Positions 11,888-20,034 of a stretch of 32,731 nucleotides of DNA are shown here, piece after piece (the stretch's first letter is position 1; every line of letters starts with the position of its first letter). The position numbers and the translations under genes are program-made. The notes below the pieces were generated by a model. That model saw only the letters and a program-made list of their open reading frames with translations. It was not told the origin of the DNA and ran no database searches. This stretch comes from Actinomycetota bacterium (lineage in GTDB: Bacteria > Actinomycetota > Acidimicrobiia > Acidimicrobiales > Acidimicrobilacustridaceae), in assembly GCA_009700115.1 (NCBI GenBank), contig WLMU01000014.1, forward strand, positions 1 through 32,731. The letters are read 5' to 3'.

Positions 11888-12988
11888 ATGCGACGTTTCG
11901 TGATCCTGATGATCTTGGCGTTTAGCCTTGTCGCCGTTGGATGTGGTTCGACGTCTCACTCGTCGAAGTCGAAAAGTCCGTCAACATTTTCCGAAATCGA
12001 TTCGGCAATGACTCTCAGAGTCGCAAGTGAACATCTGGACGGGGCTGGGTTACTGGTCGTAGCAAATGGCACTAGCTACCGCAACACTTTCTATGGGTCG
12101 TACACCAGCGAAACAGTCATTCCGATTGCATCGGCCAGTAAATGGCTTACCGCTGCGACCATGATGACTCTCGTCGACGATGGGAAAGTCTCGCTTGACG
12201 ATCCCGTTTCGAAATTCCTACCGAACTTCACTGAACCAGTCCGATCAGCGACGATCCGCCAGCTCCTTTCGCATACCGCTGGAATTGCTCAAGCGAACTG
12301 CATCTGGGAGCAACAACTTTCACTCGCTGAATGCGTCGACGAAGTTGCAACTCAGAAAGCATCCTACCCACCTGGAACGAAATTTTCCTACGGAAACACC
12401 AGTTTTTCTGTTGCCGGTCGAATCATTGAAGTCGTTACCAAGCAATCATTCGAAAAAGCATTTGAATCTCGCATCGGTCTTCCTCTCGGAATGAAACACA
12501 CGCGCTTCGACGGGAACTATTACCCCACCGAATCGAATCCTGTTCCTGCTGCTTCTGCGGAATCCACCATGTCCGATTATGGAACATTCGTCGAAATGAT
12601 CTTCAACAAAGGTTCCCTAAACGGCGTTCAGGTTCTCTCCGAACATTCAGCGCTTGAGATGGAAACTGATTCAGTTGTTGGCATCAACACAAGCGCCGAC
12701 TCTGCCGTCCGGACCACCGGCATTCCCACCTACGGACTAGGAACTTGGCGGGATGTCGTCACCGCCGACGACGTGGGAGTCGTCACGAGTGGAAATGGCG
12801 CCTATGGGTTCTACCCATGGGTTGACCGATCTCGGAATGGCTTCGGAATGGTGTTCGTTTACGACCAGCGCGGATCTGACCAAGCCGTTCCTGAATCTCA
12901 GCGCGAACTGCACTGGGTTCTTTGCGTCCTCGACGGACTCGGGGTCATGAAAACTGCCACCCCTACGACTGTGTACCGCCGGCGATAG
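11888..12988 (+). CDS. Lipoprotein of the beta-lactamase/serine hydrolase fold (PF00144-like)
   Basis: This is a 366-residue lipoprotein with a signal peptide ending AVGC (lipidated Cys19), then a Ser-rich spacer and the catalytic domain. Family motifs are SASK (nucleophile Ser82, Lys85), YGN (Tyr168, Asn170) and the QLLSHTAGI block. Such proteins include DD-peptidases, esterases and class C-like beta-lactamases; the substrate cannot be fixed here. I rejected a longer frame starting at 11732, because it overlaps the upstream gene and lacks a signal at its N-terminus. It lies 65 bases after the GT-C-like gene and may be co-transcribed with it. It ends 11 bases from the convergent sigma-fusion gene. 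Confidence 0.87.
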   Translation: MRRFVILMILAFSLVAVGCGSTSHSSKSKSPSTFSEIDSAMTLRVASEHLDGAGLLVVANGTSYRNTFYGSYTSETVIPIASASKWLTAATMMTLVDDGKVSLDDPVSKFLPNFTEPVRSATIRQLLSHTAGIAQANCIWEQQLSLAECVDEVATQKASYPPGTKFSYGNTSFSVAGRIIEVVTKQSFEKAFESRIGLPLGMKHTRFDGNYYPTESNPVPAASAESTMSDYGTFVEMIFNKGSLNGVQVLSEHSALEMETDSVVGINTSADSAVRTTGIPTYGLGTWRDVVTADDVGVVTSGNGAYGFYPWVDRSRNGFGMVFVYDQRGSDQAVPESQRELHWVLCVLDGLGVMKTATPTTVYRRR

Positions 12989-12999
12989 CGGCCTACCCG

Positions 13000-14544
13000 T
13001 CAGCAGGTGATTCCACCTGAGATCGGATTCGGCCAGACTGCGCTTCGATTGCCGGCAGCATCAACGACAGAGATCTGAATGATTGAGAACGATCCGGTAC
13101 TCAGAAAAGGACCGATTGTCGTTTTGACCGTTCCACCGGATCCTGACAACACCAGTGAACCGCCGCCTCCACTCACTCCAATCGTCGCTTGTCCAGATAC
13201 GACTCCAACATTGTCGGTCGCCATCACCGTAAGAACCGAAGTTCGGGTTCCAACCGATGAGCATTGAATTGCGGACGACACGAGAGACTGAGCGGTCAAC
13301 GACACCGACGTAATCTTCGGCGCTGTGGTGTCACGCTGAATCGTTGAGGTTTGATTCGCCGTTGAACTTGTACCTGCCACTCCCTGATTAGCTGATGTAT
13401 CGGTCATCGCGCCGGAACGCTGTGTCGTCTGAATCGTGGTTGAGCCATCCGATCCCACAACAGGCGAAATCGTCGTATCCACGACCTGCGCTGCCGAGTT
13501 CGCCGAAGAAGCCACTCGAGGACGCGAAGACCCGCCACTGACTCCGGTTACCTGAATCGTAGTCATTGTGAGCACAGCAATGGCCACGATCGCAACACCA
13601 AGACCGATGAGTAAGCGGCGAAGAGTTCCGCCACCGGTCGGGAATCCGTTCCGGCCTGCCCTGAACGAACTCGTATCGAATTTCGGAAGACCATCGGAAG
13701 TAACCGGGAGCGACGCAAGAATTTGCGTGCGAGCGGAGATCGGCGCCGCGCTTGCTGGCGACTCGCCGAACACTGCCAACGCCTTCGGCGCACGCTTCTT
13801 CGAGCAAACCACACACGCATCGGCGTGGCGCGAAATTCGCTTCCGCCAAAGCGGCGTGAGAGAACCAGAACAATCTGCAACAAGGTTCGAAAACTCAACG
13901 CAGCCATCATCGTTGTAGCGGAGAAGAAAGAGCGCCCCAATCGACCTCTCAAGATTCTGCCGCATTCTCGAAGCGATGACGTTTGCGTTATGGCGCGATA
14001 CGCCCAGTGCACTCGCAAGCTCGTCCCCCTCGACCCCTTGCCTGACAGAAAGCTCAAGAACGGCGCGCTCGTTCTCATTGAGTCCTTCAGCAGCTTCCCA
14101 AACGAGGGCTACCGCGGCATCGCCTCCCATCGCATCGGAAACCTCTGTTTCAGGTGCCGACTGATCAAGATCGAATGCGCTACGCATCTCGGTCCCCGAT
14201 GGATCGACTGCGACTTGGCGAGAAGACTTCACTCCCAGACGCGAGACCCGGTTCTTGGCAATTGCGAAGAGCCAAGGCCGAACTTGGTTGGGGTCGCGCA
14301 ATTGGTTCATTCGCTGCCACGCCGTTACAAACGTGTCCGCCATGGCATCTTCGGCCAGCCCGCGATCTCGAGTCAGCGTGAGGCAGAAGGAAAAGACTCG
14401 ATCGCTGTAGCGATCGTAGAGATGGGCGAAGGCATCCTGATCGCCCGATCCGCAGGCGTTGACCAACTCGGCATCCGTCGCCGATGCCATCGACCTGCTC
14501 GAGTTTCGAGCCCCATCCATTGGCGCAAACGATAGTTCGCTCAT
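13000..14544 (-). CDS. ECF sigma factor fused to zinc finger, membrane helix and external Ig-like domain
   Basis: This is a single 514-residue protein joining transcription and envelope parts. In numbering from the GTG at 14547: region 2 at about 36-105 (DAFAHLYDRYSDRVFSF, AEDAMADTFVTAWQRM, PWLFAIAKNR), region 4 at about 155-203 (LNENERAVLEL plus helix-turn-helix DELASALGVSRHNANVIASRM), zinc-finger-like HADACVVC (241-248, H-x3-C-x2-C as in anti-sigma ZAS domains), one membrane helix (about 309-331), a Ser/Thr linker, and an external beta-sandwich-like domain (about 406-515). That domain starts near Cys429 and ends in Cys515, a likely disulfide. ATG 14544 follows a strong GAGGGGGG. Fused ECF factors of this kind are known in actinobacteria (groups such as ECF52/53). 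It likely carries its own inhibitor and sensor (inference). Confidence 0.88.
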   Translation of the reverse strand: MSELSFAPMDGARNSSRSMASATDAELVNACGSGDQDAFAHLYDRYSDRVFSFCLTLTRDRGLAEDAMADTFVTAWQRMNQLRDPNQVRPWLFAIAKNRVSRLGVKSSRQVAVDPSGTEMRSAFDLDQSAPETEVSDAMGGDAAVALVWEAAEGLNENERAVLELSVRQGVEGDELASALGVSRHNANVIASRMRQNLERSIGALFLLRYNDDGCVEFSNLVADCSGSLTPLWRKRISRHADACVVCSKKRAPKALAVFGESPASAAPISARTQILASLPVTSDGLPKFDTSSFRAGRNGFPTGGGTLRRLLIGLGVAIVAIAVLTMTTIQVTGVSGGSSRPRVASSANSAAQVVDTTISPVVGSDGSTTIQTTQRSGAMTDTSANQGVAGTSSTANQTSTIQRDTTAPKITSVSLTAQSLVSSAIQCSSVGTRTSVLTVMATDNVGVVSGQATIGVSGGGGSLVLSGSGGTVKTTIGPFLSTGSFSIIQISVVDAAGNRSAVWPNPISGGITC

Positions 14545-14596
14545 CACCCACCCCCCTCGTCAGCTCTTTTCTTTCCACGTGACTCCCCTCCGTTCA

Positions 14597-15289
14597 TCAG
14601 GCGCAGAGCGTCGCCACAGAAAGGCTTGAATTGTTTCCCAGGCCATCCTTGGCGTAGACGACCAAGCCCGTAACTGGGCGAAAAGACCAATTCAAAATCG
14701 TGGCGGACCAAACATTGCTCCCTGGTGTCGCTGCCGTGAAGCTGTGCTTCGAACCGTCTATGTAATAGGAGCCCCAGACACTGACGACACCATTGGGGTC
14801 CTCCGCCGTAATCGAAACAATGACCTTGGAGCCACACGTCCAGATCGGCGAGGAGAGCGTGGGGCCTGCAGCAAACCCGGCAACGCCACCGTCGGGGACG
14901 ATAGGGACAGCTGGTCCCCATACTCCCCGGTCACTCGATGGCGACGATGTGCCGCCAGTCGACGAGCTTCCGGTTTCCGGCGTCTCCGAACTTGGTGCAG
15001 GAGCCGAGGTCCAATCCCCCGATGGCGGGTTCGACGACCCAAAATCGCTCGAAGAAGACCCGTCAGCTGCTCGCGCGAGACCAGATGCGGCGGTGCTTGT
15101 GTTCAAGTCTGCCGCGTTCACTCCAGTTGTACGTTGACTCGTACGGGACGACGCTGACCGAACGTTTTCGGAAGCGTTTGACTCCGTAGATGAAGTGGAC
15201 GATCTCGTTGCAAGAAATCCTGCAAGTGCAAGTGTGCCAACAAGTAAGACTGCGATTGCTCCGAGTACAACATTGCGTGAGTTCTTCAT
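14597..15289 (-). CDS. Membrane-anchored protein with Ig-like domain resembling that of the sigma fusion
   Basis: This is a 230-residue protein with a short cytoplasmic N-terminus, one membrane helix (about 8-27), a long Ser/Thr/Pro linker and a C-terminal external domain (about 142-230). That domain matches the end of the downstream sigma fusion in motif order: a first Cys (C152), then DPNGVVS (against DNVGVVS), then DGLGNNS (against DAAGNRS), and a last Cys at the extreme end (C229). ATG 15289 follows AGAGGA and is chosen over an upstream in-frame start at 15355, which would begin inside the conserved leader. The sigma-fusion gene starts 52 bases after this gene's stop, so they are probably one operon. 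The function is unknown; a sensor or decoy partner is plausible. Confidence 0.8.
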   Translation of the reverse strand: MKNSRNVVLGAIAVLLVGTLALAGFLATRSSTSSTESNASENVRSASSRTSQRTTGVNAADLNTSTAASGLARAADGSSSSDFGSSNPPSGDWTSAPAPSSETPETGSSSTGGTSSPSSDRGVWGPAVPIVPDGGVAGFAAGPTLSSPIWTCGSKVIVSITAEDPNGVVSVWGSYYIDGSKHSFTAATPGSNVWSATILNWSFRPVTGLVVYAKDGLGNNSSLSVATLCA

Positions 15290-15357
15290 GTGGTTCCTCT
15301 CCGGTCGCACGATGCGACCTCGAATGGAAGAGTCCACGAGATCTTCACCAGTCACAC
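15290..15357 (-). promoter_or_regulatory. Conserved leader copy A with hairpin before the ribosome binding site
   Basis: This leader aligns with the one at 16089-16157. Both begin with GTGTGACTGG 62-63 bases before the ATG, share a GTGG-centred block about 45 bases before it, and carry a hairpin just ahead of the Shine-Dalgarno. Here the hairpin is a perfect 7-3-7 (GGUCGCA-UCG-UGCGACC, 15303-15319). GTGTGACTGG may be the -35 element of an ECF promoter (inference). The hairpin could control translation. Confidence 0.6.
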
Positions 15358-15438
15358 ATTTTGAAAACTTTTTTATGTGGACGCGAAAAATTCAGTGCTG
15401 CTTTCGCTCCCTGACGCCCATCCGCAGTTCCACGCGAC

Positions 15439-15464
15439 GAGACCCGGAGAATTCTCCGGGTCTC
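15439..15464. terminator. 26-bp perfect palindrome between the His-rich gene and the Ig-domain gene
   Basis: The arms GAGACCCGGAGAA and its exact reverse complement meet without a loop, centred on GAATTC. It lies 52 bases past the stop of the His-rich gene and about 80 bases before leader A, so a hairpin terminator for the former is the simplest reading. No T-run follows on the minus strand. A protein-binding operator is the alternative. Confidence 0.5.
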
Positions 15465-15515
15465 CATCACTGAACTGACTGCACTGGCGGTGAAAGACGT
15501 CACCAGCACTCATGA

Positions 15516-16088
15516 CTATGAGTTTGAGCGATGGTCTTCGTGCGCCTCCTCATCATGACCATGGGATACGGCTTCGCGCTCGGCGTGGTGTTCAGAATGT
15601 TCGACTGCATGGTCATCGACACCATGTGCGTGGCCACAGCCCTCACTGGGCGCACCACTGTCAGACGACGGAACCGGAGCGGTTCCCGGTTCCTCAGCTG
15701 TTACCTCACGCTCAGGCATGGTAACGACAACACCGGGGACCGGAGCGCTGCCAACAATTCCTGGTTGCGGGCTCACTCGTCCGGTTGAATTTCCACTCTC
15801 GGCGTCGGGGGTGGAACCGCGCTGATCCGACACAGTTGATGTCGATGACGTCGCATCACTTTCGCGCTCCGTCGTAACATTGGCGGAAACATCAATCATG
15901 CCGCCGCCGTTCGCCAATTCGTTCCAATCGATGTCAGTTGAGGGCATGGCCCCGCTCACGTCTTGCGCTTCGGCAGTCTTGATGCCACCCCGATCACCGA
16001 AGGCAAGTTCGCCCACGACTCCGGCAAGGAGGAGGACGAAGATCGCGGTCAAAATGATCGTGCGGCGGGTTCGACGGTTTCTGGTCAT
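15516..16088 (-). CDS. Membrane-anchored protein with His-rich C-terminal tail
   Basis: This is a 190-residue protein with a basic cytoplasmic N-terminus (RNRRTRR), one membrane helix (about 11-30), a long polar Ser/Thr/Glu-rich external region, and a tail (about 150-190) with ten His residues plus Cys151 and many Asp/Glu. The tail looks like a divalent-metal (Zn, Ni or Cu) binding segment. No enzyme domain is recognised. The ATG at 16088 follows AAGGAAG and is preferred to the in-frame start at 16112, which lies inside the shared leader. The leader is a near copy of that of the Ig-domain gene, so both genes probably share regulation, likely by the neighbouring sigma fusion (inference). Confidence 0.72.
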   Translation of the reverse strand: MTRNRRTRRTIILTAIFVLLLAGVVGELAFGDRGGIKTAEAQDVSGAMPSTDIDWNELANGGGMIDVSANVTTERESDATSSTSTVSDQRGSTPDAESGNSTGRVSPQPGIVGSAPVPGVVVTMPEREVTAEEPGTAPVPSSDSGAPSEGCGHAHGVDDHAVEHSEHHAEREAVSHGHDEEAHEDHRSNS

Positions 16089-16157
16089 TGCTTCCTTCCC
16101 GGACCGCACCATGCGATCTCAGAAGGGAGGAGCCACCGTCAACGGTCCCAGTCACAC
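16089..16157 (-). promoter_or_regulatory. Conserved leader copy B with hairpin before the ribosome binding site
   Basis: This is the counterpart of the leader at 15290-15357. GTGTGACTGG is identical and the spacing to the ATG differs by one base. The hairpin (16102-16118) reads GAUCGCA-UGG-UGCGGUC in RNA. Against copy A, one pair changes from G-C to A-U on both sides and another from U-A to U-G, so pairing is kept while sequence drifts. An A/T-tract pair with a CTCGGCCGAG centre (16168-16177) lies just upstream. Confidence 0.6.
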
Positions 16158-16221
16158 TTTTTTTCGCCTCGGCCGAGAAAAACCCACAATCCCTGTCTCC
16201 CCTTGGGTGTGGACCGTTGCT

Positions 16222-17505
16222 CTAGGGCTTGATTGCTCGCTTCACAGGCCGATCCCAGCCGGGCTGCCCCGTGGACTTCGGACTCGGCCACAGACCTGGG
16301 CCCATTTCAAGAATGCCGTGATGTGAGCCGTATTCGCCGAGCAGATTCAGATAGCGAGCGGCGTCGAATGCCTCGGCGCCACGAACTCCAGTCCCTACCC
16401 AACCCCCACTAGCAAGAAGTTCTATTGCGACCACGGGACAAATTGCCGTTTGCCACAGCACTGCTTGTGAACCCCAATCACGCATTGTCGTTTCGTTATC
16501 GGCCACGTGATACAGGTACACCTCCCGCTGTGCCCCATCGAATGTTCCGCGAACCCAGGTCCCTGCGCACGTCTTTCCGTGCATGAGGTGACCGAGTTCG
16601 GCGGGGTTCGGCAACAGCGCAGCCAAAACATCACGGGGCGCAACTCGTGCATCGCCGACTTTGATTTTTTCTGTGGAATCGAGTCCGAGATATGCGAATG
16701 TCTTGAGCCAATCGATGAACTCTGCGCCCAAGCCGTACTTGAATGTGACTCGGCGACAATCAACTTCTCGCGGAACAAGGAGAACTTCCTCGTGTTCGAC
16801 GTTGACGCATTCGATCGGACCAATTCCCGCAGGGAAGTTGAAGACTTCAGGTTCACTAAAACATTCGGTCGTAAAGAATCCGCGATCCTTTTCCCAGATA
16901 AGGGGCGGATTCAAGCATTCTTCAATGGTGGTCCAGATCGAGAATGTCGGGGCGAAGTCGTACCCGTCGATTGAAAGATTTGAACCGTCTCGAATTCCGA
17001 TTTCATCAATCGTGTCAAAGAGATGATCTGCGGCGTAGCGGGCAAAGATATCGGACAGACCCGGCTCGACTCCCATCCCGACGATCGCCAGTAACCCTTT
17101 TTCTCGCCACGCCTCATCGGCCGCGAGCTGCGCTGCGCCAAGCGGAATACCAACCTGATTGTAGGGGTCGGTCACGTGCGGCTCACTGAGGTTCATCGCC
17201 ATATCGATGTAATTCGTGCCGGCAGTGAAACAGGCGTTGAAGATCGGTTCGTTCAATCGCGGATCGCAAGCATTAACCACGATGTCGGCTTTTGTCTCTG
17301 TAATCAACGCGACGATGTCAGCCTCACTGCGAGCATCGATGGCTGCCGCCCGGAACCGCCCCGGATCATCAAGCTCATCGATTGCGTGCTGGGCGGAATC
17401 AAAGGAAATATCCGCGAGCGTGAATGTTGAAAAGAAGGGACGATCTTCAGCGATAGACGCCATCGATGCGCCAACACCGCCTGCTCCGATCACCAGGATG
17501 TTCAT
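16222..17505 (-). CDS. Saccharopine dehydrogenase-like NAD(P)-dependent reductase
   Basis: This is a 427-residue protein beginning directly with a Rossmann dinucleotide-binding motif (MNILVIGAGGVGASMA). It continues with the saccharopine dehydrogenase family pattern: VVNACDPRLNEPIFNACFTAGTNYIDMA, then a GMGVEPGLSDIFA block that lines the substrate site. The family includes saccharopine reductase and carboxynorspermidine synthase, and the exact substrate is unknown. The start at 17505 is chosen because the fold begins there; an in-frame ATG at 17562 would add 19 residues without homology. It lies 113 bases after the LOG-family gene on the same strand. Confidence 0.85.
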   Translation of the reverse strand: MNILVIGAGGVGASMASIAEDRPFFSTFTLADISFDSAQHAIDELDDPGRFRAAAIDARSEADIVALITETKADIVVNACDPRLNEPIFNACFTAGTNYIDMAMNLSEPHVTDPYNQVGIPLGAAQLAADEAWREKGLLAIVGMGVEPGLSDIFARYAADHLFDTIDEIGIRDGSNLSIDGYDFAPTFSIWTTIEECLNPPLIWEKDRGFFTTECFSEPEVFNFPAGIGPIECVNVEHEEVLLVPREVDCRRVTFKYGLGAEFIDWLKTFAYLGLDSTEKIKVGDARVAPRDVLAALLPNPAELGHLMHGKTCAGTWVRGTFDGAQREVYLYHVADNETTMRDWGSQAVLWQTAICPVVAIELLASGGWVGTGVRGAEAFDAARYLNLLGEYGSHHGILEMGPGLWPSPKSTGQPGWDRPVKRAIKP

Positions 17506-18477: not shown

Positions 18478-20034
18478 TCAGCCGATAGTGAACACACACG
18501 TTGCAGAGTTCAACGAGCACGATGTCGGAATCGCTGAACCTTGAAGGACATAGCCAACTGACCAGGTTTCCCCCGGCGCTATCGACCTATGCCAAGAAGG
18601 ACCGGTCGCAACAATCGACTGACTCGACCCAGCGAGTGATGTTGTCCAGTCTGCATTCCACAAACTCGACATCGTCACACCGGATGGAAGTTGAAACTTG
18701 AGACTCCAGGGTGCAGATACGGATCCGATCGACGAGGTCCCCGTATTCGTGATGTCAATCGATGCTTGAAGTCCACCTGGCCAAGCATTAACAACCCGGT
18801 AGCGAACGATTGCTTTTCCTACTCCAGTTGATGAAGGCGTTGTCGTCGTACTCGTGGGCATCGTCGTCGTTGTTGTACGTGGTGCAGTCGTTGTCGTCGA
18901 CACAGGCCGGCTCGTGCTGGTTGTTGTCGCTGCAGTTCCCCCAGCGAGCGCAGCGAGGTGATCTCGGTATCCGACACCGAAACCAGTCGGAGTTCCCGAA
19001 TAGTCCGAGATCAACGAGGGACCATTTGTGCACGACCACCCACCAGCCGCATCCCAGGTCCAACCCATGTATGAAATTCCCTTTCCGTCAAACCAGTTCA
19101 TAAGGGAATCGATGAACCCATGTGCGCAATCTGTTTCTCCAATCTCACCAGCGACAATTGGGAAGAGAGCCGCCGTCGGAGCTACTGACTGATCCCATGA
19201 TGCCTGCGTATTGAACTGACTGAAGTTGTACAGGTGCAGGTCAGCGATGAGCTGCTTCTGTGGGTCATTAGGGACCCACGTATTCCATGCTGAGAGATCA
19301 CCCGCCCAATTAAGGCCCGACACCATGATCGGTTGCCTTGCTCCCGTTGATCGGACCGCGTTCACAAGTGATTGCATTCCGGCGGCCTGCCATCCCCCGG
19401 AGGTCATGCAACCGTCTCGCCAACATGACCAAGAAATATCGTGAGGTTCGTTGTAAAGGTCAAAAATGACTCCGGGATCTGCCTTAAAGACAGTCGCCAC
19501 TGATGTCCAAAACGCCGGTGCATGGTCAGCGTCAGCCATGAGTTGCTGACTCGTGGCCAGCGTTGTTCCGGCAGCGTTCCAGTGAAGGTCAAGTACAACT
19601 GCCATCCCCGCGTTGTGAAGTGACTTCACGTATCCAGCAATCGCATTCTGATAGTTGATCCCTGAATAAGCGGCATTTACCCCGTTAATGCCGAGCCAGC
19701 AATCCTCATTCAATGGGAGTCGAACAGCATTGACATTCCAAGATGCAATTGACGCAATTGACGCCGCATCAATTGGTCCATCGAACAATCCCCAGCCCTG
19801 GGCACACGCGTATTCACTTCCCGATCGATTCACTCCGAGAAGTCGAACCGTCTGGCCAGTCGCATTCACCAAATGGTTACCCACCACTTTGATCGTTACT
19901 GGTGTTCCAAGAGTTGGAGCTGATGCTGCACTCGCGGCACCTCCACCAACCGCTGTCATCGTGACTACCGATGCGATCAGCACTGCCAATACTGAAATCA
20001 AAGCAATCGCGCTCGTCCGAATTCGAACTCTCAT
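18478..20034 (-). CDS. Secreted GH5 endoglucanase with C-terminal CBM2
   Basis: This is a 518-residue secreted cellulase. A signal peptide (about 1-38, ending ASAASA) is followed by a glycoside hydrolase family 5 barrel (about 45-365). The acid/base is Glu196 in LYNEPH and the nucleophile Glu297 in VAGEIGE. Supporting marks are RLPLNEDCW, VVLDLHW and DLHLYN. Next come a Thr-rich linker (about 368-403) and a family 2 cellulose-binding module (about 407-516) with exposed-type Trp residues (W418, W459, W481) and two terminal Cys. It should cut beta-1,4-glucan outside the cell. ATG 20034 follows GGGGAG with eight-base spacing. A 153-base gap upstream holds its promoter; I see no clear -10/-35 pair there. 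Confidence 0.94.
   Translation of the reverse strand: MRVRIRTSAIALISVLAVLIASVVTMTAVGGGAASAASAPTLGTPVTIKVVGNHLVNATGQTVRLLGVNRSGSEYACAQGWGLFDGPIDAASIASIASWNVNAVRLPLNEDCWLGINGVNAAYSGINYQNAIAGYVKSLHNAGMAVVLDLHWNAAGTTLATSQQLMADADHAPAFWTSVATVFKADPGVIFDLYNEPHDISWSCWRDGCMTSGGWQAAGMQSLVNAVRSTGARQPIMVSGLNWAGDLSAWNTWVPNDPQKQLIADLHLYNFSQFNTQASWDQSVAPTAALFPIVAGEIGETDCAHGFIDSLMNWFDGKGISYMGWTWDAAGGWSCTNGPSLISDYSGTPTGFGVGYRDHLAALAGGTAATTTSTSRPVSTTTTAPRTTTTTMPTSTTTTPSSTGVGKAIVRYRVVNAWPGGLQASIDITNTGTSSIGSVSAPWSLKFQLPSGVTMSSLWNADWTTSLAGSSQSIVATGPSWHRSIAPGETWSVGYVLQGSAIPTSCSLNSATCVFTIG

Follow-up and report, generated by a model that had tools for sequence, protein, structure and literature searches.

We conclude that two related leaders on the minus strand of the window, by which we mean the whole 32,731-nt stretch of actinobacterial DNA analysed here, are quite probably promoters through which P0003, a fused ECF sigma factor, controls a single small regulon. 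Sequence comparison supports the motif, its link to this ECF and the kind of gene that lies behind it. That P0003 reads the leader promoters, where transcription starts, that P0003 is activated by proteolysis and what the hairpin in the leaders does, we infer.

Two Related Leaders With Promoter-Like Blocks

Leader 1 (15357-15290, minus strand) precedes P0001, whose ATG is at 15289, and leader 2 (16157-16089, minus strand) precedes P0002, with its ATG at 16088. The order of elements is the same in both: A-rich DNA, GTGTGACTGG, a second block, a 7-3-7 hairpin, the Shine-Dalgarno (SD) sequence and the ATG. The two leaders match in 47 of 72 aligned columns. As this agreement was equalled in none of 100,000 shuffles of one leader, the leaders are related, but they are not near-identical, as the sequence-only reading had called them. 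The agreement is complete in the -35 block (10/10), low in the spacer (2/9), and intermediate in the -10 block (9/13), the hairpin (13/17) and the final stretch before the ATG (5/13). The distance of GTGTGACTGG from the ATG, given earlier as 62-63 bases, is 68 and 69 bases when counted from the motif start. A shared block following it does exist; the GTGG by which it had been described is one column out of register between the leaders, and CG-n-n-G-n-CTC-n-TCC describes it better.

Exact copies of GTGTGACTGG occur only twice in the window (15357-15348 and 16157-16148). The 2.23 Mb draft genome holds one more, at G000:C99, which we set aside as it is on the other strand and inside an apparent coding frame. 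A longer two-block pattern found a third match with two mismatches in the same genome (C151), which we take as chance because the reversed control also gave three matches.

The -35 block of leader 1 is GTGTGACTGG (15348..15357, minus strand), of which TGTGAC is invariant in six distinct leaders, and leader 2 carries an exact copy (16148..16157, minus strand). The -10 blocks are CGTGGACTCTTCC in leader 1 (15326..15338, minus strand), kept at fixed spacing in the six leaders, and CGGTGGCTCCTCC in leader 2 (16126..16138, minus strand), again a kept block at fixed spacing. Two kept blocks flanking a free spacer give the leaders a promoter-like look. They are best read as two-part ECF promoters with TGTGACYG, then G[A/G/C][C/A]TC 16 nt after TGTGAC, and A-rich DNA upstream. 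The suggestion that GTGTGACTGG is an ECF -35 element is thus well supported by the -10 partner at fixed spacing and the A-rich upstream DNA, and also by the fused ECF gene in the operon of leader 1 and by the co-occurrence with that ECF in relatives. Both marks of an ECF-dependent promoter, i.e., -35 and -10 elements at fixed spacing and linkage to an ECF gene, were found, and a search of the region 12900-16300 gave no housekeeping sigma-70 promoter. With the -35 element at motif positions 2-7, the established ECF spacing places the start of transcription ∼36 nt further on. From this spacing we expect transcription to begin around motif positions 36-40, where the hairpin has its edge, and the transcript would therefore open with the hairpin.

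Genes Behind the Leaders

P0001 (14597..15289, minus strand) appears from its structure model to be an exported or membrane-anchored protein with a C-terminal Ig-like/CBM56-like beta domain, and has no Pfam match. In its 230 aa an N-terminal membrane segment is followed by low-complexity sequence and then by a beta sandwich at the C-terminus. Only for this sandwich can the model be used (block pLDDT 72-85 from about residue 140; 51 for the whole model), and in the PDB it comes closest to CBM56 and to fibronectin/Ig-like folds, with a best E of 6e-4.

P0002 (15516..16088, minus strand) has an N-terminal membrane segment and a His/Asp/Glu-rich tail, and a homologue in the relative G005 lies behind the same promoter. 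The tail (15516-15650, minus strand) has HGVDDHAV[ED]HS in common with this homologue, and its composition suggests metal binding. Between P0002 and leader 1 lies a strong hairpin without a T-run (15439..15464, minus strand), a perfect 26-nt palindrome, GAGACCCGGAGAATTCTCCGGGTCTC, with a z of -5.7; none of 200 shuffles folds as well. The P0002 transcript probably stops at this hairpin, ahead of leader 1. Three genes upstream of P0002 the minus strand encodes a GH5 cellulase with CBM2 (18478-20034); an exact search of the window found no copy of GTGTGACTGG near this gene.

The Fused Sigma Factor P0003

P0003 (13000..14544, minus strand) starts 52 nt after P0001, in the operon of leader 1, and combines an ECF sigma factor, a zinc-finger motif, a TM helix and an Ig-like domain. 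The sigma domain is recognized by PF04542 (42 bits, cut-off 24) and TIGR02937 (58.6 bits, cut-off 42.9); region 4 matches PF08281 with 20 bits and an E of 5e-4, the Pfam cut-off being 25.7. The sequence RKR-x2-RH-x3-C-x2-C after region 4 is invariant in 14 aligned proteins, P0003 included. In the structure model (mean pLDDT 72) a helix spans residues 305-329 and a beta domain residues 408-512. P0003 thus has the zinc finger after region 4 and, according to the model, the TM helix and extracytoplasmic domain of a fused ECF. By Foldseek, the model is closest to the inhibited SigW-RsiW complex (5wuq; E 8.6e-5, TM 0.78 by target length). As SigW is bound there to the zinc anti-sigma factor RsiW, P0003 probably carries its own inhibitor.

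The C-terminal domains of the fused ECFs were also compared with the exported products. In a single profile-profile comparison, three exported Ig-like domains matched six ECF C-terminal domains with an E of 3.8e-5 and a probability of 71%. At most two of the six C-termini match any one Ig model of Pfam and one matches CBM_56 at E 0.02; the C-terminus of P0003 gave no match to the same Pfam Ig and CBM_56 models.

Distribution of the Site and the Sigma Factor

Three of the 21 genomes of the genus carry the ECF: that of the window (G000), G014 and G005. A slightly looser site pattern matches exactly these three and none of the other 18. The ECF of G014 is 99% identical, and both leaders are identical to those of the window from the -35 element to the ATG. 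In G005 the ECF is 56% identical and follows the P0002 homologue, which is preceded by the one site of this genome. No homologue of P0001 was found in G005, whose genome is 71% complete, and no site was seen directly before the ECF. The P0002 homologue is separated from the ECF by a hairpin resembling a terminator, and autoregulation may therefore differ in G005.

Within a sample of 397 genomes from the order, which holds neither G005 nor G014, a related ECF was found in 59 at E<=1e-30; outside the genus, that of G122 comes closest (62%). The exact pattern matches five places, all in genomes with a related ECF: two in G000, two in G122 and one in G059. The pattern was written from five sites, and one of the five matches in the order, the second place in G122, is not among them. 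This second site lies on another contig than the ECF and precedes an exported Ig-like protein, which is 30% identical to P0001 over the alignment; in a small database, phmmer gave reciprocal E values of 0.0013 and 0.0022. The expected number of exact matches is about 0.01 per genome. In five ECF genomes an ATG follows each of the eight exact sites after 68-79 nt; seven of them are sites, or identical G014 twins of sites, that served to write the pattern. The 21 sites with one mismatch all lie inside frames of at least 175 residues, 20 of them without a suitable downstream start. A weight matrix made from five sites and run on the window and 20 regions assigned 27-35 bits to those sites and to their G014 copies, with no other score above 10.7, so that, the G014 copies apart, its matches are its own training sites. 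With up to one mismatch allowed, the pattern matched 116 of the 397 order genomes, and the reversed control also matched many.

The exact pattern is present in one of six genomes of the family of G122, namely G122 itself. Of the 59 order genomes whose ECF is related, 56 do not show the exact motif, which thus belongs to a narrow branch. A scan for close ECFs retained 80 of 263 relatives, of which only three are above 50% identity. Near other fused ECFs of the same family the motif of the window is absent in the loci looked at. By eye, we noted before the ECF genes of four loci (L013, L014, L016 and L018) a CGTAAG...GGTCAGG pair with a constant 13-nt gap, after CGTAAGCGC-like blocks, and this pair is a likely promoter of other fused ECFs in the family of the window. 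A further locus (L081, G301:C8:45000-63000) has two adjoining cassettes, each of an exported protein with a C-terminal AFTGSS...TM anchor and a fused ECF. Its two leaders are near-identical and contain a GAGGG/CCCTC stem, and their promoter sequence is other than that of the window. The literature that we searched contained no paper on ECF sigma factors together with Acidimicrobiia.

These observations bear on two other explanations of the leaders. As TGTGA is also a CRP-like half site, GTGTGACTGG could be the operator of a DNA-binding regulator instead of a -35 element, and the conserved 10-mer alone would look alike in either case. We consider this the least probable explanation, as neither leader has TCACA, the CRP-type partner, at the right distance, while the second block at a fixed 16-nt spacing and the co-occurrence with the ECF fit a promoter. 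It is hardly more probable that the leaders are ECF promoters read by another sigma factor of the genome, with P0003 only a target. Autoregulation is deduced from gene position and further ECF genes exist in relatives; against this, in the genus the site is found where this ECF is found and nowhere else (3/21), and one G122 site is unlinked, yet its genome carries this ECF.

The Hairpin at the Promoter

Folding and stem search found the 7-3-7 hairpin that had been described in both leaders. In leader 1 (15303..15319, minus strand) the stem is GGTCGCA/TGCGACC, and in leader 2 (16102..16118, minus strand) it is GATCGCA/TGCGGTC with one U-G pair; between the copies the stem changes from G-C to A-U and from U-A to U-G, as had been claimed. 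Three random stem substitutions leave all seven pairs intact with a probability of 0.02 to 0.07, varying with the share of transitions, and the covariation within this pair of leaders is by itself weak evidence. The whole leaders (71-72 nt) fold no better than shuffles (z of -0.7 and -0.9); the hairpin stretches alone (39-40 nt) fold better than shuffles (z of -1.8 and -3.0). Rfam 15 has no match in the window at gathering score.

The six distinct leaders, i.e., leader 1, leader 2, G005, the two of G122 (G122a and G122b) and G059, all contain a stem of 5-7 pairs. In this order, the best stems have 7, 7, 6, 6, 5 and 6 pairs, their 5′ edges are at motif positions 39, 40, 33, 41, 40 and 38, and they lie 13, 13, 23, 22, 18 and 17 nt from the ATG. 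With the 5′ edge at position 38-41 in five of six leaders and the distance to the ATG ranging from 13 to 23 nt, the position of the hairpin is tied to the promoter and not to the start codon. Compared with shuffles, single leaders give p values of 0.02 to 0.22, and the Fisher p is 0.0018 over the six, of which leaders 1 and 2 are not independent; for the four relatives with the window pair excluded it is 0.019. A separate energy test gave a Stouffer z of -3.8.

Covariation was counted on hairpin segments chosen by hand, because MAFFT on whole leaders fails to line up the hairpins. Five segments were used; G059 was left out for its longer loop, and G005 was entered by position and not by its own shifted hairpin. 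In this alignment 80% of the cells pair and the covariation score is 0.49 versus 0.21, values each reached by 4 of 500 shuffles, and sliding the alignment by 1-3 columns lowers the pairing to 27-45%. Three pairs are changed on both sides (69 of 500 shuffles as high) and there are five further pair types (184/500). The G-U pairs seen in two leaders speak for RNA rather than for a DNA palindrome.

G005 is the nearest informative relative. In register, the stem of the window is disrupted there, and G005 has a weaker stem at a shifted position. Its TTGCA/TGCAA was considered as a homologue of the window stem and dropped as uncertain.

The hairpins could be chance, or a relic of the common origin of the leaders without function, behind promoters that are as described, and we give this a little less than an even chance. 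It would agree with the break in G005, the weakness of each leader alone and the two of five covariation measures that shuffles often reached. The hairpin energies are also ordinary among 80 leaders of the same regions, the regulon's own included, and there is no general stem excess in leaders of exported proteins near fused ECFs (19 versus 56 leaders, loci overlapping others left out; Mann-Whitney p 0.58). It is harder to reconcile with the recurrence of the stem in all six leaders, five times at the same promoter distance, and with a covariation score and paired cells that shuffles rarely equal. A hairpin that hides the SD sequence and controls translation is unlikely: in whole-leader folds of both window leaders outer pairs cover part of the SD, but these pairs need bases upstream of the expected start, and the kept stem ends at a varying distance before the ATG. 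For a working RNA or operator function of the hairpin the support is thus only moderate: the stem in six leaders and covariation above shuffles speak for it, the break in G005 and the ordinary energy against it. As its likeliest role we suggest protection of the mRNA at its 5′ end, with the SD remaining free.

Discussion

In the regulon that we propose, RNA polymerase with P0003 would read TGTGACYG as the -35 element and G[A/G/C][C/A]TC, 16 nt after TGTGAC, as the -10 element. Leader 1 would drive P0001 together with the sigma gene, a positive autoregulation, and leader 2 would drive P0002 as a separate transcript. The zinc-finger domain of P0003 probably keeps the sigma factor at the membrane in an inactive state, until the outer Ig-like domain senses something and proteolysis frees it. 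Because the sigma gene is in the operon of leader 1, release of P0003 should raise its own synthesis. Transcripts starting near motif position 36-40 would begin with the hairpin, which may protect the 5′ end with the SD free.

Fused sigma factors with a zinc finger and a TM helix, expected to be released by proteolysis, make up the groups ECF48, ECF52 and ECF53, as described in an excerpt of PMC8999054. P0003 is likewise predicted to join an ECF domain, a zinc finger, a TM helix and an outer domain in a single chain. A studied member of ECF52 is SCO4117 of Streptomyces coelicolor, for which the excerpt of PMC5826349 gives a putative motif, CSGYN-17-SRHA, and hints of autoregulation. P0003 differs from it in its Ig-like outer domain and in the motif of the window. 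By analogy of architecture, P0003 may work like the fused ECF48/52/53 kind, with another sensor domain and another motif. The predicted fold of its sigma and zinc-finger parts also resembles the inhibited SigW-RsiW complex, which in Bacillus consists of two separate proteins and in P0003 would be one chain.

SigI/RsgI of Clostridium thermocellum likewise has an extracellular sensor domain that is akin to the exported products; it differs in its separate anti-sigma factor, other sigma class and cellulosome genes. The resemblance between sensor domain and exported target suggests feedback outside the cell. The exported domain (that of P0001 or of the unlinked G122 protein) could compete for, or pair with, what P0003 senses. 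We consider it rather doubtful, and offer it as a bolder extension, that promoter and 5′-terminal hairpin are inherited as one module, giving each transcript made with this sigma factor a protective hairpin, and that the regulon also exports copies of the sigma factor's sensor domain, closing an extracellular feedback loop.

Stem-loops in 5′ untranslated regions stabilize some mRNAs, that of Escherichia coli ompA included, according to excerpts of PMC2777011 and PMC7509114. The likeness to the ompA type, as these excerpts present it, is an envelope-protein mRNA with a stem-loop close to or at its 5′ end, the 5′ end being a predicted one in the window; stems of the window type are short in comparison (5-7 pairs). 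By this analogy, a protective 5′ hairpin fits mRNAs for exported proteins whose SD is free.

Taken together, the system is a regulatory module of known kind, in which the promoter-linked hairpin is the open element and the likeness of sensor and target is suggestive. Two anonymous leaders from uncultured actinobacteria thereby become a regulon that can be tested, with a self-inhibited sigma factor at its head and a promoter motif that can be used in seeking more targets. Should the hairpin belong to the promoter module, the targets of this sigma factor would share a tag for mRNA stability besides their promoter.
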